From Bacteroidales bacterium (GTDB taxonomy: Bacteria > Bacteroidota > Bacteroidia > Bacteroidales > UBA932): a DNA stretch of 64,000 nucleotides. Below the pieces are notes generated by a model that was not told the DNA's origin, ran no database searches, and saw nothing but the letters and a program-made list of their open reading frames with translations. A program made the position numbers and the translations under genes. Positions 40,987-55,073 of the stretch are shown piece by piece; the first letter of the stretch is position 1, and each line of letters begins with the position of its first letter. The DNA lies in assembly GCA_017438975.1 (NCBI GenBank), contig JAFRUH010000021.1:1-64000 (forward strand). Direction: 5' to 3'.

Positions 40987-41020
40987 AGCATTTTAATTGG
41001 AATCCGTCGGGAACTTTTTT

Positions 41021-41028
41021 TATATTTA
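41021..41028 (+). promoter_or_regulatory. Candidate -7 box of the omega-amidase gene
   Basis: TATATTTA, one base off TAnnTTTG, 25 bases before the ATG at 41054, divergent from the GH127-type promoter. Confidence 0.4.
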
Positions 41029-41053
41029 CACCGGAATCCTGAAAACCAAGTCC

Positions 41054-41833
41054 ATGAGAATCACTCTTGTCCAATCCGATCCGGTCTGGGGAGATCCCGC
41101 CGGAAGCCTTGCCCGCCTGGATGAGCAATTGAAAGAAGTCGGGGAAACCGACCTGATCGTCTTTCCCGAGATGTTCACGACCGGTTTCGTCGCATCTCCC
41201 GAAGGCCTTGCCGAAAAGGGTGCTGGCGAAGGGGAGCCGGAAAGCCTGCGATGGATGCGGAAAACGGCGGCCCTGAGAGGTTGCGCCATCGCCGGCAGCA
41301 TCGCGTTCGGAACCGGAGGCTGCTCCCATCGGAACCGCTTCTATTTCGTATTTCCGGACGGGAAAGAGGTCCATTATGACAAGCACCATCTCTTCACCTA
41401 TGCCGGGGAGCATCTCCGCTTTACGGCCGGACAGGAGCGGGTGGTCGTTCCGTATAGGGATTTCCGGATCATCCTGCAGGTCTGTTATGATCTCCGGTTC
41501 CCGGTCTATTCCCGGAACCGGATGACTCCGGAGGGTCCCGATTATGATCTCATCCTCTATGTAGCCAGCTGGCCGGAGCAGCGGATCGGGGCCTGGGATG
41601 CCCTCCTGAAGGCCCGTGCGATCGAGAATCTTGCCTTCGTAGCGGCTGTGAACCGGGTCGGGACAGATCCCGGGAACCGGTATCCGGGACATTCCGTTTT
41701 GCTGGGCCCCCGTGGAGAAATGCTTTCGAATTGTAAGGAGAATGTGGAAGATGCTGTCACTTTTGATATTTCAAAAGCGGATCTCACATCATTTAGAAAA
41801 TCCTTCCCGGCCTTGCTGGATGCTGATCTTTAG
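41054..41833 (+). CDS. Nitrilase-family omega-amidase (YafV-like)
   Basis: A 259-residue C-N hydrolase with the catalytic triad Glu39 (FPEMFTTGF), Lys110 (HYDKHHLF) and Cys144 (LQVCYDLRFP). The block YAGEHLRFTAG and the overall length match YafV/Nit2-type omega-amidases, which hydrolyse alpha-ketoglutaramate or alpha-ketosuccinamate and clear products of methionine salvage transamination. Cytosolic. The ATG at 41054 gives MRITLVQSDPVWG, the usual N-terminus. It stands alone between divergent GH127 and the branched-chain operon leader. Confidence 0.88.
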   Translation: MRITLVQSDPVWGDPAGSLARLDEQLKEVGETDLIVFPEMFTTGFVASPEGLAEKGAGEGEPESLRWMRKTAALRGCAIAGSIAFGTGGCSHRNRFYFVFPDGKEVHYDKHHLFTYAGEHLRFTAGQERVVVPYRDFRIILQVCYDLRFPVYSRNRMTPEGPDYDLILYVASWPEQRIGAWDALLKARAIENLAFVAAVNRVGTDPGNRYPGHSVLLGPRGEMLSNCKENVEDAVTFDISKADLTSFRKSFPALLDADL

Positions 41834-41851
41834 CAGTTTTTTAACTTTTTT

Positions 41852-41883
41852 CTTGCTTTTTTAGTTGGCATTTTGTTATTTTG
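41852..41883 (+). promoter_or_regulatory. Candidate promoter of the branched-chain amino acid operon
   Basis: CTTG at 41852-41855 and TTATTTTG at 41876-41883 are 20 bases apart, each one base off the TTTG / TAnnTTTG consensus. Transcription would start near 41890, about 18 bases before the leader-peptide ATG. Confidence 0.45.
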
Positions 41884-41907
41884 TATTCGGTTACAATTTA
41901 TAAGCAA

Positions 41908-41958
41908 ATGAACGTGCTCGTCCTTAGCCTCTCCATTATTCTTCTTGTGGTCGTATGA
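41908..41958 (+). CDS. Branched-chain amino acid leader peptide (attenuator), 16 codons
   Basis: An ATG-initiated reading frame encodes MNVLVLSLSIILLVVV and ends at TGA 41956-41958. Twelve of its 16 residues are Val (5), Leu (5) or Ile (2), which equals the product set of the operon beginning 94 bases downstream. It resembles IlvL/IvbL leader peptides of enterobacteria in design but not in sequence. The RNA right after the stop forms alternative hairpins (41963-42031). The predicted role is ribosome stalling when charged Val, Leu or Ile tRNA is scarce. Not an annotated protein family; the call rests on composition and position. Confidence 0.85.
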   Translation: MNVLVLSLSIILLVVV

Positions 41959-41962
41959 CTGC

Positions 41963-42012
41963 GGGCTGAAAAGGCGTAAGGTACAAGCAAGGTTACAACC
42001 CCTTTTCAGTCC
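41963..42012 (+). promoter_or_regulatory. Antiterminator hairpin of the ilv attenuator
   Basis: GGGCTGAAAAGG (41963-41974) pairs with CCTTTTCAGTCC (42001-42012), 12 pairs including one G-U. It starts four bases after the leader-peptide stop, so a ribosome that reaches the stop would cover the left arm. The right arm is the same segment that forms the left arm of the terminator, making the two structures mutually exclusive. Confidence 0.8.
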
Positions 42013-42031
42013 GATGAGCTGGAAAGGGGTT
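41997..42031 (+). terminator. Attenuator terminator upstream of ilvD
   Basis: AACCCCTTTTCAG (41997-42009) pairs with CTGGAAAGGGGTT (42019-42031), 13 pairs with one G-U and a nine-base loop. It is followed by GCTTTTAAT. It ends 21 bases before the ilvD ATG, so it can only act as a conditional terminator for the downstream operon. Confidence 0.82.
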
Positions 42032-42052
42032 GCTTTTAATAAAATGTAGTGT

Positions 42053-43885
42053 ATGAAACATCCGTTGAGAAGCAGCGTTACATTCGAAGGAAGGCGTATG
42101 GCCGGCGCCCGGGCCCTTTGGGCGGCCGCGGGCATGAAACCGGAACAGGCCGGCAGGCCCGTGATCGCCGTCGTCAATTCTTTCACGCAGTTCGTCCCTG
42201 GCCATACCCACCTGCATGAGGCCGGCCAGATCGTCAAGGAAGAAATCGCCCGTCTCGGCTGCTATGCGGCCGAATTCGATACCATCGCGGTCGACGACGG
42301 AATCGCGATGGGCCACGACGGCATGCTCTATTCCCTCCCTTCCCGCGAAATCATCGCCGACAGCGTCGAATACATGGTCAATGCCCACAAGGCCGACGCG
42401 ATGGTCTGCATCAGCAACTGCGACAAGATCACCCCGGGTATGCTCATGGCTGCGATGCGTCTGAACATCCCGGCCGTTTTCGTTTCCGGCGGCCCCATGG
42501 AGGCCGGCGTGATGGGCGCTGCGAAACTGGACCTCATCGATGCGATGGTCAAGTCCGCCGATCCATCCCTGAGCGACGGGGAGATTGCGGCGGTCGAAGC
42601 CGCCGCCTGTCCGGGCTGCGGTTGCTGCTCCGGCATGTTCACGGCCAATTCCATGAACTGCCTGACCGAGGCGATCGGGCTTTCCCTTCCCGGGAACGGC
42701 ACCGTTCTCGCCACGCACAAGGCCCGTACGGAACTTTTCCGGAAAGCGGCCCGGGTCATCGTCGCCAATGCGCGGAAGTATTATGAGGAAGGGGACGAGA
42801 GCGTCCTGCCCCGGTCCGTCGCGACCCGCCAGGCCTTTCTCAATGCCATGACCCTCGATATCGCGATGGGCGGCTCGACCAATACGGTCCTGCACCTTCT
42901 GGCCGTCGCGGACGAAGCCGGGGTCGATTTTACGATGGACGATATCGACGCCCTCTCCCGGAAGGTTCCCTGCATCTGCAAGGTCGCTCCGAATACGGCG
43001 AAATATCATATCCAGGACGTAGGCCGCGCCGGCGGCGTCCTGGGCATCCTCGGTTCCCTCGCGGCAGGCGGCCTGGTCGATACCTCAGCCGTCCGGGTCG
43101 ACGGAATGACCCTCGGCGAGGCGCTCCGGAGCTATGACCTGATGTCCCCCGGCTGTACGGACGAAGCCCGGAAACTTTATTTCTGCGCACCCGCGAACCG
43201 GTTCAGTACGCAGCTCGGTTCGCAGGAGACTTATTATGATACCCTCGATACCGACCGTACCGGGGGATGTATCCGGGATCTCGCCCACGCTTATACGCAG
43301 GACGGCGGACTCGCTGTCCTCAAGGGCAACATCGCCCGGTGCGGCTGTGTCGTCAAGACGGCCGGGGTAGACGCTTCGATCTGGAAGTTCAGGGGACCCG
43401 CCCGGGTCTTCGATTCCCAGGAAGCGGCCTGCGAGGGTATCCTCGGCGGAGCCGTCAAGGCGGGCGACGTCGTTGTCATCACGTACGAGGGCCCGAAAGG
43501 TGGGCCGGGCATGCAGGAAATGCTTTATCCGACCTCCTATCTGAAGTCCATGCACCTCGGAAAGGCCTGCGCCCTTCTGACGGACGGCCGTTTCAGCGGC
43601 GGGACTTCAGGCCTGAGCATCGGCCATGTCTCCCCGGAAGCCGCCGCCGGCGGTGAAATCGCCCTTGTCCGGGACGGGGACGTCATATCGATCGACATTC
43701 CCGCCCGGAGTATCGACGTGCTCGTCCCGGAGGAGGAACTCTCCCGGCGCCGGGAGGAAGAACTCCGCCGCGGGGACAAGGCTTTCACGGCTCCCAAACG
43801 AACGAGGAAGGTCTCCAAGAGTCTCAAGGCATATGCAAAAATGGTGAGCTCCGCAGACCGGGGCGCCGTCAGAATCATAGATTGA
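42053..43885 (+). CDS. ilvD: Dihydroxy-acid dehydratase
   Basis: A 610-residue IlvD/Edd-family dehydratase with iron-sulfur ligand regions [12 protein letters not shown] and [19 protein letters not shown], plus [14 protein letters not shown] in the C-terminal half. It converts 2,3-dihydroxy-isovalerate and 2,3-dihydroxy-3-methylvalerate to the 2-keto acids of valine/leucine and isoleucine. First structural gene after the attenuator, with ilvB starting two bases after its stop codon. Confidence 0.97.
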
Positions 43886-43886
43886 C

Positions 43887-45596
43887 ATGGAAGAGAAGAT
43901 TACGGGATCGGACGCCCTGTGGCGTTCACTTATCGAAGAAGGGGTGGATACGGTCTTCGGGTATCCCGGCGGCCAGATCATGCCCGTTTACGACCGCCAT
44001 TGCGACTATGCGGACAAGATCCGTCACATCCTGGTCCGCCACGAACAGGGCGCAATCCACGCCGCCCAGGGTTATGCGCGTATCAAGGGACGGCCGGGCG
44101 TCGTCCTGGTCACTTCCGGACCGGGCGCGACCAATGTCGTGACGGGTGTCGCAGATGCGATGACCGATTCGACCCCGATCGTGGTCATTTCCGGACAGGT
44201 TCCCTCCGGCGCCCTCGGAACCGATGCGTTCCAGGAAGCGGACGTCATCGGCCTGACGGCCCCGATCACCAAATGGAACTATCAGATCCGCCGGCCCGAA
44301 GAGGTCGGTTGGGCGATCGCCCGCGCGTTCTACATCGCCCGGACCGGCCGTCCCGGGCCCGTCGTCCTGGACTTCACCAAGGACGCCCAGGTCGGCCTGA
44401 CGGATTTCCGGTACGAGCCTTGCCAGTTCATCCGGAGCTATGTTCCCGATCCGTCCCCGTCCGAACAGATGGTCGAAAAGGCGGCGCACATGCTGGACGA
44501 AGCCGAGCGGCCGTTCTGCGTCTTCGGACAGGGCGTGACGATCAGCGGTGCGGAAAAGGAACTGGCGGAATTCCTCTCCAAGGGAGATATTCCCGCCGGC
44601 TCGACCCTCCTCGGCCTGAGCGCCCTCCCGTCCGGCTTCCCGCTGTACCGGGGAATGATCGGCATGCACGGAAACGTAGCCCCGAATATCCTTACCAATG
44701 AATGCGACGTACTCATCGCCGTCGGGATGCGGTTCGACGACCGGGTGACCGGCACCGTTTCGACCTATGCCAGGCAGGCGAAGGTCATCCATATCGATAT
44801 CGACAAGTCCGAACTCGGCAAGATCATCACTCCCGAGGTCGCCCTCCGCGGGGATGCACGAGAGGTCCTTGCCCGGCTGACCCGGAAGATGCAGCCCCGG
44901 AAGCGGAGCGAATGGACCCGGGCCCATCTCCGCTGCGAGAGCGTCGAGAAAGAGAAGGTGATCGACCCCGAGGTCCATCCCGGGAGCGGCTTCCTGAAAA
45001 TGGGAGAGGTCGTCGACAGGGTCGCGGAAGCGACTGGAGGGAAGGCGGTTATCGTAACCGATGTCGGGCAGAACCAGATGATGGCCGCCCGCTATTCCCG
45101 CTTCGCCAGGTCGCGGAGCTTCCTCTCTTCCGGAGGCCTCGGGACCATGGGCTTCGGCCTTCCCGCCGCCATCGGCGCCAAGGTCGCGGATCCCGGCCGG
45201 GAGGTCTGCCTCTTCGTTGGGGACGGCGGTATCCAGATGACCCTCCAGGAATTCGGGACGATCATGCAGGACGGCATCGGCGTCAAGATGATCCTCCTGA
45301 ACAACAACTGGCTCGGCAATGTCCGCCAGTGGCAGGAACTCTTCTTCAAGGAGCGCTATTCCCAGACCCGGATGCTCAATCCGGATTACGGGATGATCGC
45401 GTCAGCCTACGGGATTCCGTCCCGCATCGTGAAGGATCGTTCCGAACTCGACGGCGCCCTCCGGGAGATGCTGTCCACGGACCGGCCTTTCCTGCTCGAC
45501 GTCCATGTCGAGGAGGAGGGGATGGTCATGCCGATGATCCCGCCGGGAAAGGGAATCCACGAAATCATGCTTACGGAAAATGAATGGTTCAGCTGA
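43887..45596 (+). CDS. ilvB: Acetolactate synthase large (catalytic) subunit
   Basis: A 569-residue TPP/FAD enzyme: FGYPGGQIMPVYD, catalytic Glu in HEQGAIHAAQGYAR, and the TPP-Mg motif GDGGIQMTLQEFGT...NNNWLG. It forms 2-acetolactate from two pyruvates or 2-aceto-2-hydroxybutyrate from pyruvate and 2-oxobutyrate. The small subunit gene starts one base after its stop, as expected for a two-subunit enzyme. Confidence 0.97.
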   Translation: MEEKITGSDALWRSLIEEGVDTVFGYPGGQIMPVYDRHCDYADKIRHILVRHEQGAIHAAQGYARIKGRPGVVLVTSGPGATNVVTGVADAMTDSTPIVVISGQVPSGALGTDAFQEADVIGLTAPITKWNYQIRRPEEVGWAIARAFYIARTGRPGPVVLDFTKDAQVGLTDFRYEPCQFIRSYVPDPSPSEQMVEKAAHMLDEAERPFCVFGQGVTISGAEKELAEFLSKGDIPAGSTLLGLSALPSGFPLYRGMIGMHGNVAPNILTNECDVLIAVGMRFDDRVTGTVSTYARQAKVIHIDIDKSELGKIITPEVALRGDAREVLARLTRKMQPRKRSEWTRAHLRCESVEKEKVIDPEVHPGSGFLKMGEVVDRVAEATGGKAVIVTDVGQNQMMAARYSRFARSRSFLSSGGLGTMGFGLPAAIGAKVADPGREVCLFVGDGGIQMTLQEFGTIMQDGIGVKMILLNNNWLGNVRQWQELFFKERYSQTRMLNPDYGMIASAYGIPSRIVKDRSELDGALREMLSTDRPFLLDVHVEEEGMVMPMIPPGKGIHEIMLTENEWFS

Positions 45597-45597
45597 T

Positions 45598-46155
45598 ATG
45601 GAAAACGAAGAAATAAAGGAATATACGGTTCTTATCTATACCGAGAACGAAATCGGCCTCCTCTCCCAGATATCCAATGTCTTCACGAGGCGGAGCCTGA
45701 GCATCTGGAGCATGTCGGCGGGAGCGACCGCCCACGAGGGCGTGCACAATATCACCATCGTGACCGAAGGCACCGAACGGAAGGTCCGGCAGGCCGCCGA
45801 GCAGATCGAAAAGAGGGTCGACGTCATCAAGGTCTTCTTCTACACCGATGACAAGATCGTCTACCGCGAGCTGGCGCTCTACAAGATATCGACGGAACGC
45901 TTCCTCGGCTGCAACGACATCGAAGGGCTCCTCTCCCGCTACGGGGCGAGGATCGTCGAGATGAACCGGAAGTTCACGGTCATCCAGAAGACCGGCTATA
46001 CCGAGGAAACCCAGGCCCTCTACGATGAACTCGAGCCTTTCGGCATCCTCCAGTTCATCCGTTCCGGCCGGATCGCCGTCTCGCGGGCTGTCCAGGAGCC
46101 CGTCTTCAAATTCCTGGAAAAACGGGAAAAAGCAAGGAAACAACTAAACAAATAA
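45598..46155 (+). CDS. ilvN: Acetolactate synthase small (regulatory) subunit
   Basis: A 185-residue protein with an N-terminal ACT domain (about 8-80: YTVLIYTENEIGLLSQISNV, SAGATAHEGVHNITIV) and a C-terminal ALS-small domain. It activates IlvB and confers valine feedback in homologues. An in-frame ATG six codons upstream, inside ilvB, is less likely; the start at 45598 gives MENEEIKEYTVLIY one base after the ilvB stop. Confidence 0.94.
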   Translation: MENEEIKEYTVLIYTENEIGLLSQISNVFTRRSLSIWSMSAGATAHEGVHNITIVTEGTERKVRQAAEQIEKRVDVIKVFFYTDDKIVYRELALYKISTERFLGCNDIEGLLSRYGARIVEMNRKFTVIQKTGYTEETQALYDELEPFGILQFIRSGRIAVSRAVQEPVFKFLEKREKARKQLNK

Positions 46156-46163
46156 TTATCATT

Positions 46164-47204
46164 ATGGCAATCATCAATTTCGGCGGAGTGGACGAGAACG
46201 TCGTCACCCGTGATGAATTCCCCCTCGAGAAAGCACGCGAGGTACTCAAGAATGAAACCATCGCCGTCATCGGTTACGGTGTTCAGGGACCCGGACAGTC
46301 CCTCAATCTGAGGGACAACGGTTTCAAGGTCATCGTAGGCCAGCGGAAAGGCAAGACCTATGACAAGGCGGTCGCGGACGGCTGGGTCCCCGGCGAGACC
46401 CTTTTCGAGATCGAAGAGGCCTGCAAGCGGGGCACCATCATCCAGTATCTGGTTTCAGACGCGGCCCAGATCGAGGTCTGGCCGACCGTCAAAAAGCACC
46501 TGACCCCGGGAAAGGCCCTCTATTTCTCCCACGGGTTCGGCATTACCTACAATGACCGGACGGGCATCGTCCCGCCGAAGGACGTGGATGTCATCATGGT
46601 CGCACCGAAGGGCTCGGGCACCTCTCTCCGGAGGCTCTTCCTGCAGGGCCGCGGCGTCAACTCCTCCTATGCGGTCTGGCAGGATGCGACGGGACGCGCC
46701 CTCGAGCGCACCCTCGCCCTCGGAATCGGCGTCGGCTCGGGCTACCTCTTCGAGACGGATTTCAAGCGGGAGGTCTATTCGGACCTGACCGGCGAGCGCG
46801 GAACCCTGATGGGAGCCATCCAGGGCATCCTCCTGGCCCAGTATGAGGTCCTTCGGGCCCATGGCCATTCGCCGTCCGAGGCCTTCAACGAGACCGTCGA
46901 GGAACTGACCCAGTCCCTGATGCCGCTCTTCGCAGAGAAAGGTATGGACTGGATGTACGCCAACTGCTCGACGACCGCCCAGCGGGGCGCCCTCGACTGG
47001 ATGGGACCTTTCCACGATGCGACGAAACCCGTGTTCGAGAAACTCTACGAGAGTGTCGCCAGCGGCAAGGAAGCCCAGATTTCTATCGACTCCAACTCCA
47101 AGCCCAACTACCGGGAAGGCCTTGAAAAGGAACTGAAGGCCCTTCGCGACAGCGAACTCTGGCGTACCGGCGCGGCCGTCCGTGAACTCCGTCCGGAAAA
47201 GTAG
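46164..47204 (+). CDS. ilvC: Ketol-acid reductoisomerase
   Basis: A 346-residue class I-length KARI: NAD(P) fold [20 protein letters not shown], phosphate-binding loop [12 protein letters not shown] (Arg/Lys suggest NADPH), [15 protein letters not shown] and the Mg-binding region with [16 protein letters not shown]. It isomerises and reduces acetolactate or acetohydroxybutyrate. Located eight bases after ilvN and four before leuA. Confidence 0.97.
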
Positions 47205-47208
47205 CGGT

Positions 47209-48699
47209 ATGGCGGACAAGGTCTATATTTTCGACACGACGCTCCGCGACGGGGAACAGGTGCCCGGATGCCAGCTCAACACGGTTGAGAAAATCCAGGT
47301 GGCCAAATCGCTGGAGCTGCTCGGCGTCGATGTGCTCGAGGCGGGATTCCCCGTTTCGAGTCCCGGCGACTTCAACTCGGTCGTCGAGATATCGAAGGCT
47401 GTGACCTGGCCGGTCATCTGTGCGCTGACCCGTGCGGTGGAAAAGGATATCGACGTCGCCGCCGATGCCCTGAAATATGCCCGCCGCAAGCGGATCCATA
47501 CGGGGATCGGGACGTCCGACTACCATATCCGGTACAAGTTCTCTTCGACCCGCGAGGAAATCCTCGAGCGGGCGGTGAGGGCCGTCAAGTATGCCAAGCG
47601 GTACGTGGAGGATGTGGAATTCTACGCCGAGGACGCCGGACGGACCGAAAACGAGTACCTTGCCAGGGTCGTGGAAGCGGTCATCAAGGCGGGAGCCACG
47701 GTCGTCAACATCCCCGACACGACGGGCTACTGCCTCCCGGAAGAGTACGGTGCAAAGATCAAGTATCTCTGCGACCATGTCGACGGGATTGAGAACGCCA
47801 TTATTTCGACCCACTGCCACAACGACCTCGGGATGGCGACGGCCAACACCATGGCCGGTCTGCTGAACGGGGCACGGCAGTGCGAAGTGACGATCAACGG
47901 CATCGGTGAGCGGGCGGGAAATACGGCCCTCGAGGAGATTGCGATGATCCTTCGTTCCCATAAGGACATCGACCTCGAGACGACCATCAACACCCAGCGG
48001 ATCTATCCCCTGAGCCGGATGGTCTCCGGCCTGATGAACATGCCCGTCCAGCCGAACAAGGCGATCGTCGGAAAGAATGCCTTCGCCCATTCCTCGGGCA
48101 TCCACCAGGACGGTGTCCTGAAGGATACCAGCACCTATGAGATCATCGACCCGAAGGACGTCGGCATCGACGCCAATTCGATCGTCCTGACGGCCCGGAG
48201 CGGCCACGCGGCCCTCAAGTTCCGGCTCAAGAGCTTGGGCGTCAACCTCTCCGACGAGAAACTGGACCATGTCTACGAGGACTTCCTCCGGCTTGCCGAC
48301 AAGAAGAAGGTCCTGCACGACGACGACATCCTGATGCTGGCCGGGGCGGACCGGGCCCACGACCGCCATATCAAGGTCGACTGGCTGCAGGCGACGAGCG
48401 GCATCGGAATGAAACCGGTCGCCTCGATCGGGCTGGACATCTCCGGGGAGAAATTCGAGGCGGCGGCGACCGGAAACGGTCCCGTCGATGCGGCGATCAA
48501 CGCCCTCCGCCAGATTATCCGGCGTCATGTGACGATCAATGAATTCACCATCCAGGGGGTTACCAAGGGCTCTGACGACTGCTGCAAGGTCCATATGCAG
48601 GTCGAGAGCGAGGGACGCCTCTATTACGGCTTCGGCGCCAGCACGGATATCGTGACGGCCTCGATCGAAGCCTATGTGGACTGTATCAATAAAATGTAA
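47209..48699 (+). CDS. leuA: 2-Isopropylmalate synthase
   Basis: A 496-residue enzyme: [16 protein letters not shown] (metal/substrate site), [24 protein letters not shown] (His ligands), [13 protein letters not shown], and a C-terminal LeuA dimer/allosteric domain (about 385-496) expected to bind leucine. It condenses 2-ketoisovalerate with acetyl-CoA, the first leucine-specific step. The ATG at 47209 gives [15 protein letters not shown]; an earlier in-frame ATG lies within ilvC. Confidence 0.95.
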
Positions 48700-48701
48700 C
48701 G

Positions 48702-50096
48702 ATGAATACCCTGTTTGACAAGATCTGGGACGCCCATATCGTCCAGAAGGTGGAAGGAGGACCGGACCAGCTCTACATCGACCGGCTCTATTGCCACGAA
48801 GTGACGAGCCCGCAGGCCTTCGACGGCCTGCGGAAACGCGGGATCCGCTGCCTCCGTCCGGAGAAGATCTTCTGCATGCCGGACCACAACACCCCGACCC
48901 ACGACCAGGACAAGCCCATCGCGGATCCGGTCTCCCGGAAGCAGGTCGATACCCTGTCGGAGAATGTCGCCGAATTCGGCCTCACCCACTATGGGATGAA
49001 CGATCCCCGGAACGGGATCATCCATGTGGTCGGGCCCGAGCGCGGACTTTCCCTCCCGGGTATGACGATCGTCTGCGGCGATTCCCATACCTCGACCCAC
49101 GGGGCCGTCGGAGCCCTGGCTTTCGGAATCGGCACGAGCGAAGTGGAGATGGTCCTCGCCTCGCAGTGCATCCTGCAGGCGAAACCCAAATCGATGCGGA
49201 TCCGCATCGAAGGGGCTCTCGGAAAGGGTGTGACGGCCAAGGACGTCGCCCTCTTCCTGATGAGCCGCCTGACCACTTCCGGAGCGACAGGCTATTTCGT
49301 CGAATACGCCGGAGCAGTCGTCCGCGACCTCTCCATGGAAGGCCGCCTGACCCTCTGCAACCTGTCCATCGAGATGGGCGCCCGGGGCGGTTTCGTGGCG
49401 CCCGACGAGAAAACGTTCGCCTATCTGAAAGGACGTCCCCATGCCCCTGCGGGAGAAGAGTGGGAGCGCAGCGTCGCCTATTGGAAGACCCTCCGGAGCG
49501 GGGACGACGCGGTCTTTGACCGGGAAGTCGTCTTCGACGGGGCGGAGATCGAACCGATGATCACTTACGGCACGAATCCCGGCATGGGCGTTGCGATCAC
49601 CGGCACGGTCCCTTCCCTCGACCGGATTCCCGCGGAAGGGCAGCCTTCTTTCCTCAAGTCCCTCAGGTACATGGACTTCCATCCCGGAGAGGAACTGATC
49701 GGGAAGGCGGTGGACTATGTGTTCCTCGGCGCCTGTACGAACGGGCGGATCGAGGACTTCCGCGCTTTCGCATCCATCGCGGCCGGACGGCACAAGGCTC
49801 CCGGGATCACCGCCTGGCTCGTACCCGGCTCCTGGGAAGTCCGCCGGCAGATCGCGGAAGAGGGACTCGACCGGGTCCTGGAGGAGGCCGGCTTCGAAAT
49901 CCGGCAGCCCGGATGTTCCGCCTGCCTCGCCATGAACGATGATAAGATTCCGCCCGGAAAGTATTGCGTATCAACGAGCAACCGCAATTTCGAGGGTCGC
50001 CAGGGGCCACTGTCCCGGACCCTTCTCGCGAGCCCGCTCACCGCTGCTGCCGCGGCCGTCACCGGAGTCGTCACTGATCCAAGAACCTTGTTATGA
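48702..50096 (+). CDS. leuC: 3-Isopropylmalate dehydratase large subunit
   Basis: A 464-residue aconitase-family subunit: [33 protein letters not shown], and 4Fe-4S ligands in [11 protein letters not shown] and [11 protein letters not shown]. With LeuD it isomerises 2- to 3-isopropylmalate, and in citramalate routes also citramalate to beta-methylmalate. Two bases follow leuA; overlaps leuD by four bases. Confidence 0.97.
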
Positions 50097-50683
50097 AACA
50101 GAAATTCAATATCATCGAATCGACCTGCGTGCCCCTTCCCCTCGAGAATGTGGACACGGACCAGATCATACCCGCCCGCTTCCTGAAGGCGACGACCCGC
50201 GACGAGCGGTTTTTCGGCGAGAACCTGTTCCGCGACTGGCGTTACAACAGCGACGGAACCCCCAATCCCGGATTCGTCCTCAACGACCCCCGGTACGGCG
50301 GGGAAATCCTTGTCGCGGGGAAGAACTTCGGTTCTGGCTCCAGCCGTGAACATGCCGCCTGGGCCATCGCCGGCTACGGATTCAGGGTCGTGATCTCCAG
50401 CTTCTTCGCGGATATCCACAAGAATAACGAACTCAACAATTTCGTGCTGCCGGTCGTTGTTTCCGAGGATTTCCTGCAGGAGATCTTCGCCGCCGTCCGG
50501 GAAGACCCGTCCGTGAAGGTGAGGGTGGACGTCCCCGCCCAGACCGTGACCCTGCTCTCCACCGGGCGGAGCGAGTCCTTCGAACTGAACCCTTATAAGA
50601 AATACTGTCTGATGAACGCGCTGGACGATATCGATTATCTCCTCCTGCAGAAAGACAAGATCGAAGCCTACGAAAACCGATGA
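50093..50683 (+). CDS. leuD: 3-Isopropylmalate dehydratase small subunit
   Basis: A 196-residue swivel-domain subunit: [18 protein letters not shown] and [17 protein letters not shown]. Both ends overlap neighbours by ATGA (leuC upstream, the citramalate synthase-like gene downstream), indicating coupled translation. Confidence 0.97.
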
Positions 50684-52200
50684 TTGAAATCTTGGATACG
50701 ACCCTCCGGGACGGGGAACAGACCGCCGGCGTATCGTTCAATGCGGACGAGAAACTGGCCATCGCGCGCCTGCTCCTGGAGGAACTGAAAGTCGACCGGA
50801 TCGAGGTCGGTTCCGCCCGCGTGTCCGTCGGGGAGAAGGACGCCTTCGCGAAAATCTGCGCCTGGGCCTCCACCTGCGGCCATGCCGGACAGGTCGAAGC
50901 CCTGGGATTCGTGGACGGGGGAGCGTCGATCGAGTGGATCGCCTCTTCGGGCGGCAAGGTCATGAACCTGCTCGCGAAGGGCTCCCTCCGCCATCTCGAG
51001 GGTCAGCTCCGGAAGACCCCGCAGGAGCATCTGGACGATATCCTCCGGGATTTGAAAAAAGCCCGTTCCAAGGGCCTCGAGGTCAATGTCTACCTCGAAG
51101 ACTGGTCCAACGGGATGGCCGATTCCCCGGACTATGTCCATTTTCTCGTGGACGCCCTGAAAGAGACTTCCGTGAAACGGATCATGCTCCCGGATACCCT
51201 CGGGATCCTCAATCCCCGCCGGACTGCCGCCTTCTGCAGCGAAATGACCGGCCGCTACCCCGGGGTCCGTTTCGATTTCCACGCCCACAACGACTACGGC
51301 CTCGCCGTGGCGAATGTCTATGAGGCCGTCCTCGCCGGCGTGCAGGGGATCCATGTGACCGTCAACGGACTCGGTGAACGGACCGGGAACCTGTCGGTCG
51401 CCGGTGCGGTCGGCATCCTGAACGATCACCTTCATGCCCCCAACAACCTGGACGAGAGCAAGCTCATGCATGTCTGCCGCTATGTGGAGACGATTTCCGG
51501 GGTCCGGATTCCTGCGAACAGCCCCCTCGTCGGTGAGTTCGCCTTCACGCAGACGAGCGGAGTCCATGCCGACGGGGACAAGAAGGGAGGACTCTACCAG
51601 AGCGCCCTCCAGCCCGAACGCTTCGGCCGGCACCGGACTTACGCCCTCGGCAAGACCAGCGGGAAGGCCAATATCATGAAGAACCTGGAGGAACTCGGAA
51701 TCAGCCTGACGCCCGACCAGATGAAAATCGTGACTGCACGCGTCGTGGAACTCGGAGACAAGAAACAGAGCCTTTCCCCTGAAGACCTTCCGTTCATCAT
51801 CGCGGATGTGCTGAAGGGCGATTTCTCGGCGGCCCCCGACCGGATCAAGATCGTCAATTACGGTCTCCAGCTGACCCGGGGCATGCGCCCTGTGGCCAAC
51901 CTGAGGATCGATATCGAAGGAAAGGAATATGAGGAATCCGCCTCCGGAGACGGCCAGTACGACGCTTTCATGAAAGCCCTCTGGAAGATCTACGACCGCC
52001 TCGGGAAACATCATCCGAAACTGACCGACTATGCGGTCAAGATCCCGCCCGGAGGAAAGACCGACGCCCTTGTCGAAACGACGATCCAATGGGACCAGGA
52101 CAGCCGTTCCTTCAAGACCCGCGGAATTGACTCCGACCAGACGGAAGCGGCCATCAAAGCGACTCTCAAGATGTTGAATATCATAGAAAACCAGCAATAA
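50680..52200 (+). CDS. Second LeuA-like synthase, probable (R)-citramalate synthase
   Basis: A 506-residue DRE-TIM enzyme: [54 protein letters not shown], and a C-terminal LeuA-type allosteric domain (about 385-500). It differs clearly from the LeuA encoded earlier in the operon (e.g. [14 protein letters not shown]-like region and [12 protein letters not shown] instead of the LeuA equivalents). Similar second synthases sit in leu clusters of Bacteroides and are annotated only as isopropylmalate/homocitrate synthase family. The position between leuD and leuB, and the absence of ilvA, favour citramalate synthase (pyruvate + acetyl-CoA), feeding LeuCD and LeuB to 2-oxobutyrate. Substrate specificity remains unproven. 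Confidence 0.72.
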
Positions 52201-53264
52201 TGAAACTCAAAATCGCGAAACTCCCGGGAGACGGCATCGGACCGGAAGTCGTAGAGCAGGCCGTCAAGGCCGTCGATGCCGTATGCCGCCGGTTCGGCCA
52301 CGAAGCGACGTACTCTTTCGGATATGTGGGCGCCGTCGCCATCGACCATTGCGGGGATCCGTATCCCGACGAGACCCATGCCATCTGCATGGACAGCGAC
52401 GCGGTCCTTTTCGGGGCTGTCGGCGACCCCCGATTCGACAATGACCCGACGGCGAAGGTCCGTCCCGAACAGGGGCTCCTCGCCATCCGGAAGAAACTCG
52501 GCCTTTTCGCCAACCTCCGCCCGGTCGAAACCTTCAAGTCCCTGGTCGGGAAATCTCCCCTGAAGACCGAACTGGTCGACGGTGCAGACTTTCTCTGCGT
52601 CCGGGAACTGACGGGAGGCATGTATTTCGGCGACCGCGGCCGGAAAGACGGGGGAGATACGGCTTTCGACACCTGCATTTATTCCCGTTTTGAGATTGAG
52701 CGGATCCTTTCGCTGGCCTTCGACTATGCGATGCGCCGCCGCCGTCACCTGACCGTCGTCGACAAGGCCAACATCCTCGAGACCTCGCGCCTCTGGCGTC
52801 AGATCGCCCGGGAAATGGCCCCGAAATATCCGGAAGTCGAGGTGGATTACATGTACGTCGACAATGCGGCGATGCAGCTGATCCGCTGTCCGAAGGCCTT
52901 CGACGTCATCGTGACCGAAAACACCTTCGGGGATATCCTGACCGATGAGGCGAGCTGCATCTCCGGGTCCATGGGCCTTCTGGCCTCCGCTTCGGTCGGT
53001 GCCCATACCTCCCTTTTCGAGCCGATCCACGGATCCTACCCGCAGGCGGCCGGCAAGAATATCGCCAACCCTGTCGCCGCAATCCTGAGCGCAGCCATGA
53101 TGTTCGAGTATTCGTTCGGTCTCATGGAAGAAGGCGCCGCCATCCGGAAAGCCGTTTCCGCTTCGATCGACAAGGGAATCGTCACGGAGGACCTCGCCGC
53201 CGGCGGAAAGGCATACTCCACCTCCGAAGTCGGCGACTGGATCGCCGCAGCCATTGAGTCATAA
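52200..53264 (+). CDS. leuB: 3-Isopropylmalate dehydrogenase
   Basis: A 354-residue beta-decarboxylating dehydrogenase: [55 protein letters not shown] and [14 protein letters not shown]. It oxidises and decarboxylates 3-isopropylmalate (and in the citramalate route 3-methylmalate to 2-oxobutyrate). The start codon shares one base with the stop of the preceding gene (TAATG). Confidence 0.96.
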
Positions 53265-53275
53265 CCTGAAATTCC

Positions 53276-54325
53276 ATGCATATGTCAGCTTCCATCAACT
53301 GGGATACCCTGGGCTTCGATGCCTACAGGACTCGTACCGTCATCCTGTCCCATTACAAAGACGGCCAGTGGTCCCCGATCGAGAAGACCGAGACCTTTTC
53401 GTTCACATTCGATCCTTTCGCCCAGGTCTTCCACTACGCGATCTCCTGTTTTGAAGGACTGAAGGCTTTTCGCCAGAAAGACGGGCGCATCTCCCTTTTC
53501 CGGCCGGATCAGAACGCCGCCCGGATGGCCCGGACCGCCGATTATCTCGGTATGCCGTGCCCCTCGAAGGAAATGTTCGTCAAGATGTGCGAACTCTGCG
53601 TGGAGAATAACCTGGAGTTCCTGGCTCCTTATGGCCACAAGGCCTCCCTGTACATCCGGCCCCTCCTCGTCGGCATGCATCCCCAGATGCAGCTCGTTCC
53701 CTATCCGGAGGCTATTTTCGCGGTGATGTGCGCTCCTGCGGGTTCATACTACGGGGCCCATCTCCGTTCCTGCGCGGCGGTCATTCCGGGAGATTTCGAC
53801 CGGGCAGCCCCGAAAGGATCCGGAAGTTACAAGATCGGAGCCAATTATGCCGCCACGTTCAGGCCCTACAAGTATGCCCATGAGCAGGGATACGCGGAAC
53901 TGCTGTACCTGAATTCCTCGACCCGGGAGTTCGTCGACGAGTTCGGTTCCTCGAACTTCTTCGGAATCAAGGGAAACAAGTATGTCACCCCGCTTTCCGA
54001 CAGCGTCCTTCCTTCCATCACGAACCTGACGCTCCAGCAGGTGGCCAGGGATTTCGGGATGGAAGTGGAGAAGAGACCCGTCCCGCTTGAGGAACTTGCC
54101 GAATTCGAGGAAGCCGGCGGCTGCGGAACCGCCGTCGTGATTACGCCGATGTCCCATATCGACATCAAGCCGGTTCTTGCGGAACCGCTGGTTTCCAGAT
54201 CTTTCCGCTATGAACCGGACGGACAGGTCGGACCGGCTTGCACGAAACTCTACAACCGAATCGTGGGCATCCAGTTCGGAGAACTCGAGGATACCCACGG
54301 TTGGTGTCACTATTGGCTGGATTAA
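53276..54325 (+). CDS. ilvE: Branched-chain amino acid aminotransferase
   Basis: A 349-residue PLP fold-type IV transaminase: ISCFEGLKAFRQKDG, RPLLVGMHPQ, GSGSYKIGANYAAT (PLP Lys), EFVDEFGSSNFFGI and GCGTAVVITPMSHI. It transfers amino groups to the keto acids of Val, Leu and Ile, closing the pathway. Starts at 53276 or six bases later (second ATG). Last gene of the operon; only four bases separate it from the convergent PIG-L stop. Confidence 0.96.
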   Translation: MHMSASINWDTLGFDAYRTRTVILSHYKDGQWSPIEKTETFSFTFDPFAQVFHYAISCFEGLKAFRQKDGRISLFRPDQNAARMARTADYLGMPCPSKEMFVKMCELCVENNLEFLAPYGHKASLYIRPLLVGMHPQMQLVPYPEAIFAVMCAPAGSYYGAHLRSCAAVIPGDFDRAAPKGSGSYKIGANYAATFRPYKYAHEQGYAELLYLNSSTREFVDEFGSSNFFGIKGNKYVTPLSDSVLPSITNLTLQQVARDFGMEVEKRPVPLEELAEFEEAGGCGTAVVITPMSHIDIKPVLAEPLVSRSFRYEPDGQVGPACTKLYNRIVGIQFGELEDTHGWCHYWLD

Positions 54326-54329
54326 CGGC

Positions 54330-55073
54330 TCAGACGAGTCCGGACGGCTCTGCATGGCGGACGAACGCTTCGGCGGCCGTCCGCCTGCATTCTATTCCGC
54401 GGAACCGTTCCATGGGTTCATGCCAGTCCCTCATCACTTCTTCCAACTGCTGGCTCTCGTGGCAGTAGCAGGCCTTGTGTTTTTGCTCGAGGACGGACGT
54501 GATGTCGACCCAGTCCGTCGGATGGAACAGCTGGGTCTGCGTGCCGGTCATGACCTCGAAGTAATAGAGGTCGAAGCACCGGCCGAGTCGCCGCCAGGCA
54601 TCCACGACGAGCAGGCCGCAGACCGCATGGTCCCGGTGGCCATCGATCGGCCAGTGTGTCAGGACGACATCGGGCTTTTCCCGCTCCAGGAGTTCCCTCA
54701 TTTCCCGGTAGCGGTCGAGGTTGATTTCCGTGCTGCCGTCGATCTGGTCCATGAAAATATGCCGTGCGCCCGTGACTGCGCAGGCCCTTTCGCTTTCCGC
54801 GACCCGGATCGCAGCGGCTTCCGCGTGGGTCTTGCCCCGGATTCCGGCTTCGCCACGGGTCAGGTAGACGCAGACGACGTCATGTCCCGCCCGGGTCAGC
54901 AGGCAGATCGTACCGCCCGCTCCGGTTTCGGGATCGTCGGGATGGGCCCCGATGACCAGGATTTTTTTCTTTTCGGACGGAGCCGTGTTCTCTTTCGACG
55001 AGAGCGGAATCCCGCCGAGAATCGTCAGGGCGGCCGCGCTTCCGGCCGCTTTCAGTGCTTCTCTCCGGTTCAT
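54330..55073 (-). CDS. Exported PIG-L family N-deacetylase
   Basis: A 247-residue protein with a Tat-like N-terminus (MNRREALKAAGSAAAL) and the LmbE/PIG-L zinc-site motifs GAHPDDPETGAGGT and DGHRDHAVCG. Family members deacetylate GlcNAc-containing lipids, glycans or small molecules. It follows the DUF5009 acyltransferase by four bases, so an exported deacetylase and a membrane acetyltransferase-like protein share a transcript. Confidence 0.9.
   Translation of the reverse strand: MNRREALKAAGSAAALTILGGIPLSSKENTAPSEKKKILVIGAHPDDPETGAGGTICLLTRAGHDVVCVYLTRGEAGIRGKTHAEAAAIRVAESERACAVTGARHIFMDQIDGSTEINLDRYREMRELLEREKPDVVLTHWPIDGHRDHAVCGLLVVDAWRRLGRCFDLYYFEVMTGTQTQLFHPTDWVDITSVLEQKHKACYCHESQQLEEVMRDWHEPMERFRGIECRRTAAEAFVRHAEPSGLV

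Follow-up and report, generated by a model that had tools for sequence, protein, structure and literature searches.

A putative ribosome-mediated attenuator with a Val/Leu/Ile-rich leader peptide upstream of ilvD in Bacteroidales

Analysis of a 64,000-nt (64-kb) stretch of a Bacteroidales contig, hereafter the window, revealed an element upstream of ilvD that is very probably a ribosome-mediated transcription attenuator of the trp/his/ilv kind, judging from its sequence and those of its relatives. Leader-peptide attenuation is the classical mechanism of the trp, his, and ilv operons; the mechanism is thus not new, and the Bacteroidales ilvD element is well supported by the comparison of many sequences. 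A preliminary description of the window had proposed such an attenuator, and this reading gained support from the recurrence of leader and terminator at 52 of 106 ilvD loci, from covariation, and from a TAnnTTTG motif at 39 of those 52 loci. If the reading is correct, many Bacteroidales would have their entire branched-chain amino-acid pathway under one control point.

The element is intergenic, lying between a gene at 40997–41833, carbon–nitrogen hydrolase-like by eye, and the ilvD start codon (ATG) at 42053. It is followed by ten co-directional genes with identities assigned by NCBIfam, the eighth of which, LeuA/CimA-like, scored under the curated cut-offs. The ten genes presumably form one operon; on the plus strand of 41700–54600, the only terminator-like site was that of the element itself (41996–42032). 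The features are summarized in Table 1.

Table 1. Features of the ilvD leader region and the genes downstream (window positions)
Feature	Sequence	Positions	Strand	Basis
Probable -7 promoter box	TTATTTTG	41876..41883	+	One mismatch to TAnnTTTG
Leader peptide ORF	MNVLVLSLSIILLVVV	41908..41958	+	Read from sequence; leader class and terminator in 52/106 ilvD loci
Possible 1:2-type hairpin	CTTGTGGTC/GACTGCGGG	41944..41965	+	Present in MFE
Strand 2, antiterminator 5' arm	CGGGCTGAAAAGG	41962..41974	+	13 pairs with 42001–42013; covariation
Strand 3, terminator 5' arm	CAACCCCTTTTCAGT	41996..42010	+	Pairing, covariation
Antiterminator 3' arm		42001–42013	+	Overlaps strand 3 and terminator loop
Strand 4, terminator 3' arm	GCTGGAAAGGGGTTG	42018..42032	+	15 pairs with strand 3; covariation
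Short U-run CTTTT after terminator stem		42033..42037	+	Read from sequence
ilvD-ilvB-ilvN-ilvC-leuA-leuC-leuD-LeuA/CimA-like-leuB-ilvE		42053..54325	+	Coordinates, NCBIfam

The ilvD leader region

The leader ORF runs from its ATG at 41908 to a TGA at 41956–41958 and comprises 16 sense codons, of which 12 encode Val (5), Leu (5), or Ile (2), in agreement with the preliminary description. It is therefore enriched in codons for the amino acids made by the downstream genes, as an attenuator leader should be. Transcription is predicted to start near 41890, downstream of a probable -7 box related to TAnnTTTG, which we take to be the Bacteroidetes -7 box. At 39 of the 52 positive loci, the exact motif was found 14–60 nt 5' of the leader, compared with 4.6% of shuffles; the box in the window, with its one mismatch, is not counted among the 39.

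Strand 2 begins three bases past the leader stop and forms a 13-pair antiterminator stem with one G-U pair. The 12 pairs first described (41963–41974 with 42001–42012) were correct, and the stem grew by one pair on re-derivation. The 13-pair GC-rich hairpin noted previously likewise proved to be a portion of a longer terminator stem of 15 pairs with a 7-nt loop, followed by CTTTTAATAA; the folding energy of 41994–42034 was −23.8 kcal/mol. The U-run in the window consists of four residues and is shorter, by eye, than in many relatives. Since the two helices have a strand in common, they are mutually exclusive, and both the re-derived pairs and covariation agree with the original proposal of a shared middle segment.

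The possible 1:2-type hairpin (loop 41953–41956) overlaps Val codons, the stop codon, and the 5' end of strand 2. Among the 39 leaders used for the hairpin tests (defined below), the region from −30 to +8 around strand 2 folded better than shuffles (mean z −1.76), and the region from −45 to −1 did not (mean z 0.01). Over the full length of the leader, no conserved 1:2 hairpin was observed (median z −0.2).

A scan of both strands of the 64 kb for a leader, terminator, and antiterminator under loose criteria returned this site alone, and the same criteria were met by 1 of 3000 first-order shuffles of 41632–42052 (421 bases). The fold of 41880–42052 had a z-score of −4.1, with 1 of 200 shuffles equally stable. 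Terminator-like sites as such showed no excess on the two strands of 41700–54600 (10, versus a shuffle mean of 11.6), and those other than the ilvD terminator were short (5–8 pairs). At the gathering score, no Rfam family matched the 64-kb window, amino-acid leaders and T-box included, and a T-box and the other Rfam families were rejected. With E values up to 10, 13 matches were obtained in 41850–42060, all far under their gathering scores and none to an amino-acid leader or T-box.

In the proposed mechanism, transcription would begin at the predicted start, and a ribosome would enter the leader behind the polymerase. Under a shortage of Val-, Leu-, or Ile-tRNA, the ribosome would stall on codons about 12 nt or more 5' of strand 2; strand 2 would then pair with strand 3, no terminator would form, and the ten genes would be transcribed. 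When the tRNAs are charged, the ribosome at the stop codon would cover strand 2, strands 3 and 4 would pair, and transcription would stop just past 42032, leaving a truncated transcript of about 150 nt. In the cell, this choice between termination and readthrough would couple the ten genes to Val/Leu/Ile tRNA charging. At equilibrium, the full-length terminator form was ahead by about 15 kcal/mol (−52.5 versus −37.9 kcal/mol), so readthrough would need kinetic trapping. RNA up to 42017 with the leader untranslated was predicted to form the 2:3 stem, a weak hint that the default without translation may be readthrough.

Distribution among ilvD loci and covariation

The preliminary description had called for a comparison of related ilvD upstream regions; in this comparison, the Val/Leu/Ile-rich frame recurred together with the terminator and antiterminator, and each of the two exclusive helices covaried. 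We surveyed 106 ilvD loci, of which 61 genomes (the window's own included) contributed 26 and contigs of named genomes the other 80. At least one locus is shared between these sources, as L020 and L068 have identical upstream sequence, and L024 and L028 were excluded (contig end; distant relative). A Val/Leu/Ile-rich leader with a terminator preceded ilvD at 52 of the 106 loci, the window among them. A strict rule was passed by 50 loci and by 0 of 1000 shuffles (20 for each of the 50 positive regions); a looser second pass also took non-ATG starts and thereby admitted L055. For relatives, the search rule demanded a T-rich tail after the terminator.

Among the 80 named contigs, the 22 that are non-Bacteroidota by record title yielded no positive (three had less than 200 nt upstream), and 32 of the other 58 were positive. 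Positive records included Bacteroides, Phocaeicola, Alistipes, Odoribacter, Paludibacter, Prolixibacteraceae, and Tannerellaceae; of 10 records with Prevotella or Prevotellaceae in the title, 8 lacked the leader. In all, 54 of the 106 loci failed the leader-plus-terminator rule. Four of these (L010, L020, L023, and L068) have a leader and terminator visible by eye, and some of the others have ilvD within an operon (L060 and L066, by eye) or little upstream DNA. No such leader was found at L029 or at L009, L011, and L012, which belong to the window's own genus.

Covariation was evaluated on a structure-blind alignment (A1) of 46 of the 52 positive loci. Six divergent or weakly paired loci (L008, L021, L025, L075, L088, and L099) were left out by choice, so A1 leans toward the proposed structure, and kinship among the sequences inflates all covariation counts. 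Of the cells in the terminator helix, 94.3% were paired and 54 carried a double change; the corresponding values for the antiterminator helix were 83.6% and 28, and none of 500 shuffles attained any of the four. Sliding the partner strand by 1–3 columns left at most 67.5% of terminator cells and 56.8% of antiterminator cells paired. Antiterminator pairs with a double change numbered 7, a value that was not distinctive: 26 of 500 shuffles attained it, as did slides of −2 (8) and +3 (7), and a slide of +1 gave 23 double-change cells. RNAalifold on A1 predicted the terminator only, with no antiterminator. Taken over the alignment, compensatory change supports both the terminator and the antiterminator as mutually exclusive helices.

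Ribosome position and alternative explanations

Spacing and hairpin tests were performed on those 39 of the 52 leaders whose 2:3 stem measures 8 nt or more. Ile, Leu, or Val codons occupied 102 of 117 positions lying 12–20 nt 5' of strand 2 and 14 of 103 positions at 3–11 nt. By position, they accounted for 37/39, 36/39, and 29/39 codons at 18–20, 15–17, and 12–14 nt, then 8/39, 4/36, and 2/28 at 9–11, 6–8, and 3–5 nt. Such an edge about 12 nt from strand 2 is expected if a stalled ribosome must spare the antiterminator arm. The leading edge of the ribosome lies about 12 nt beyond the first nucleotide of its A-site codon; with this edge assumed, the 12-nt codon limit falls where a stalled ribosome would start to cover strand 2.

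With the same assumed edge, the RNA beyond a simulated ribosome was folded, and the structures switched in line with the attenuation model. Stalls at the Ile, Leu, and first of the three last Val codons left the full antiterminator (−22.7 kcal/mol at the first Val). A stall at the second Val left a nearly full 2:3 stem (−20.7 kcal/mol), one at the third a weaker stem (−12.3 kcal/mol), and a ribosome at the stop codon abolished the 2:3 stem (−5.1 kcal/mol). By both the codon profile and the simulated edges, a stall at a regulatory codon would free strand 2 and a ribosome at the stop codon would mask it.

The three last Val codons of the window lie 15, 12, and 9 nt from strand 2. The suggestion that stalling at all three would shield the arm and tune the response toward Leu and Ile was not borne out, as stalls at the first two keep a full or nearly full 2:3 stem. 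Among relatives, the residue found most often close to the arm was Val (20, 25, and 20 of 39 leaders at 18–20, 15–17, and 12–14 nt), so Val starvation should count, and the modeled switch should sense it. In 10 of the 39 measured leaders (L003, L007, L015, L033, L045, L065, L071, L073, L093, and L101), the stop codon lies 9–22 nt 3' of the 5' end of strand 2; a ribosome finishing such a leader would read on into, or all the way through, the antiterminator arm and not halt at its edge.

Three other explanations were weighed. Translational control, in which the leader and hairpins would set ribosome access to ilvD or reinitiation, appears improbable. Short leader genes close to the next gene have been proposed to boost its translation by reinitiation, but the 94 nt from leader stop to ilvD contrast with a peak at 11–14 bp for such pairs in Bacteroidetes and agree with the at least 40 bp expected for attenuation (PMC4833913). 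The 3:4 hairpin also ends 20 nt short of the ilvD ATG, and in relatives it is followed by a T-rich tail, a feature that the search rule demanded.

Still less probable is that the frame is the gene of a small hydrophobic membrane peptide, with the hairpin as its gene-end terminator and any effect on ilvD incidental. An Ile/Leu/Val-rich peptide of 16–27 residues would resemble a transmembrane segment, but such a gene leaves several features unaccounted for: the 5' arm of the terminator is also complementary, with covariation, to the segment at the leader stop; the Ile/Leu/Val codons end sharply about 12 nt before that segment; and in related genomes the leaders of hisG are poly-His, those of trpE are Trp-rich, and Val content depends on which gene lies downstream. 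A constitutive terminator of the gene at 40997–41833, after whose end a terminator is indeed expected, or a chance combination of frame and hairpin, has a negligible probability given the 52 positive ilvD loci, the 39 with TAnnTTTG 5' of the leader, the single passing shuffle in 3000, and the lack of any other site in the 64 kb under loose criteria.

Known attenuators and leaders of other amino-acid operons

The ilvGMEDA and ilvBN attenuators of Escherichia coli and its relatives combine a Val/Leu/Ile-rich leader with an exclusive antiterminator and terminator and control genes of branched-chain amino-acid synthesis. The attenuator proposed here resembles them in its Val/Leu/Ile-rich leader peptide, its exclusive helices, and the branched-chain amino-acid genes under its putative control. 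It differs in that ilvD comes first in a series of genes that includes leuA, leuC, leuD, and leuB, in that Val codons lie nearest the switch, in the weakly supported 1:2 hairpin, and in having no Rfam leader match. Actinobacterial ilvB leaders (PMC1262725) and that of Corynebacterium ilvBNC (PMC11857589) likewise combine an Ile/Leu/Val-rich leader ORF with a terminator, in another gene order and phylum; in Streptomyces coelicolor, substitution of leader codons was reported to leave regulation unaffected (PMC1262725).

In 2010, before presenting their own Firmicutes case, the authors of one study stated that they knew of no leader peptide system outside Proteobacteria and Actinobacteria, ermC aside (PMC2965389). 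Strong clues for leader peptide attenuation 5' of amino-acid biosynthesis operons have been reported for Flavobacterium psychrophilum, of the same phylum, in one sentence that gives no ilvD element, codon rule, or covariation; "ilv" is absent from the main text of that transcriptome paper (PMC9723704). In B. thetaiotaomicron, short frames within long 5' UTRs have been noted as reminiscent of such leaders (PMC7366714). Our literature search, in which subscription journals were thinly covered, found, among the papers listed, no recognised description of this ilvD leader in Bacteroidales, and prior publication is possible. Two genome surveys of attenuation, by Vitreschak et al. in 2004 and Lopatovskaya et al. 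in 2010, are said to have predicted amino-acid leaders comparatively in a wide range of bacteria and may already include Bacteroidetes.

Leader composition tracks the pathway, as leader classes matched the genes downstream. Before ilvD, 51 of 106 loci had Ile/Leu/Val (ILV) leaders, none His, and one Trp (by the loose rule); before hisG, 21 of 30 had His leaders (the window's own genome included), one ILV, and one Trp (loose rule). Trp leaders preceded trpE at 8 of 23 loci, with no ILV or His leaders, and ILV leaders preceded leuA at 7 of 26, with no His or Trp leaders. The hisG leaders were poly-His and the trpE leaders Trp-rich, and the leuA leaders contained Leu and Ile with little Val: Val made up 6 of 70 ILV codons there versus 223 of 595 in ilvD leaders (Fisher p 2e-7). 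Of 34 hisG matches, 30 had loci, all of which were scanned; the 21 of 30 is a lower bound because the gene start was misplaced in several. None of the trpE matches reached the family cut-off (0 of 61 genomes exceeded it), and PabB-like genes may be among them; the family search gave no trpE match in the window's own genome.

A spacing rule was also observed before hisG and leuA. In the 18 of 21 hisG leaders measured, His codons were present in 16/17, 15/17, and 11/16 at 21, 18, and 15 nt, then in 1/16, 2/15, and 0/12 closer in, giving an edge of about 15 nt. In the seven leuA leaders, regulatory codons were present in 7/7, 6/7, 6/7, and 3/7 at 21, 18, 15, and 12 nt, then in 0/7, 0/5, and 0/5, giving an edge of about 12 nt. 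No spacing rule emerged for trpE leaders: a 2:3 stem of 7 nt or more was present in 4 of 8, and these four scattered.

A covariance model built from A1 (R1), which matches its own sequences by construction, revealed this architecture upstream of leuA as well, both in five other families and in one member of the window's genus. R1 matched 28 of 61 relatives at E 0.01 and, across the phylum, 16 of 198 at E 1e-4; these tallies are not counts of ilv attenuators because R1 also matches plain terminators, and matches without a sensible leader occurred, e.g., at L145, L147, L151, L155–L158, L243, and L247.

We consider it reasonably likely that the ilvD switch belongs to a phylum-wide set of ribosome-mediated attenuators in Bacteroidota that also precede leuA, hisG, and trpE, together with candidates identified by eye before ilvA and ilvE and perhaps before phe, Asn, and Cys genes. 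In several of these attenuators, a common spacing of about 12–15 nt separates the final regulatory codon from the antiterminator arm. Such a set would imply that ribosomes track RNA polymerase closely in Bacteroidota, where most translation starts lack Shine–Dalgarno pairing.

Several individual loci deserve mention. The window's own genome carries a second likely attenuator before hisG (L195, G000:C23), with leader MTLSLAYLHHHRIFPIW, terminator GGGAGACTTGCC...GGTAAGTCTCCC, and antiterminator TCTGGTAAG/CTTGCCAGA. Leu/Ile-rich, Val-poor leaders with the same architecture precede leuA at L139, L140, L142, L143, L144, and L154, and an Ile-rich leader with this architecture precedes an IlvA-like gene (by eye) at L146. 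Among the 17 R1 matches listed from the phylum search, 10 precede TrpE-like genes (by eye) and have Trp-rich leaders (L238, L240, L242, L245, L246, L248, L249, L250, L251, and L253). R1-matched terminators at L141 and L152 lie before GltB-like glutamate synthase genes (by eye), with no clear amino-acid-rich leader. At L239 and L244, an Ile-rich leader and terminator precede branched-chain aminotransferase-like genes (by eye). Possible Phe and Asn attenuators were observed at L129, where a Phe/Tyr-rich leader precedes a prephenate dehydratase-like gene (by eye), and at L135, where an Asn-rich leader precedes an AsnA-like gene (by eye). Short frames with CCCC before an ABC transporter ATPase (L252, by eye) and with CTCC before a carbonic-anhydrase-like gene (L241, by eye) may represent Cys-sensing leaders.
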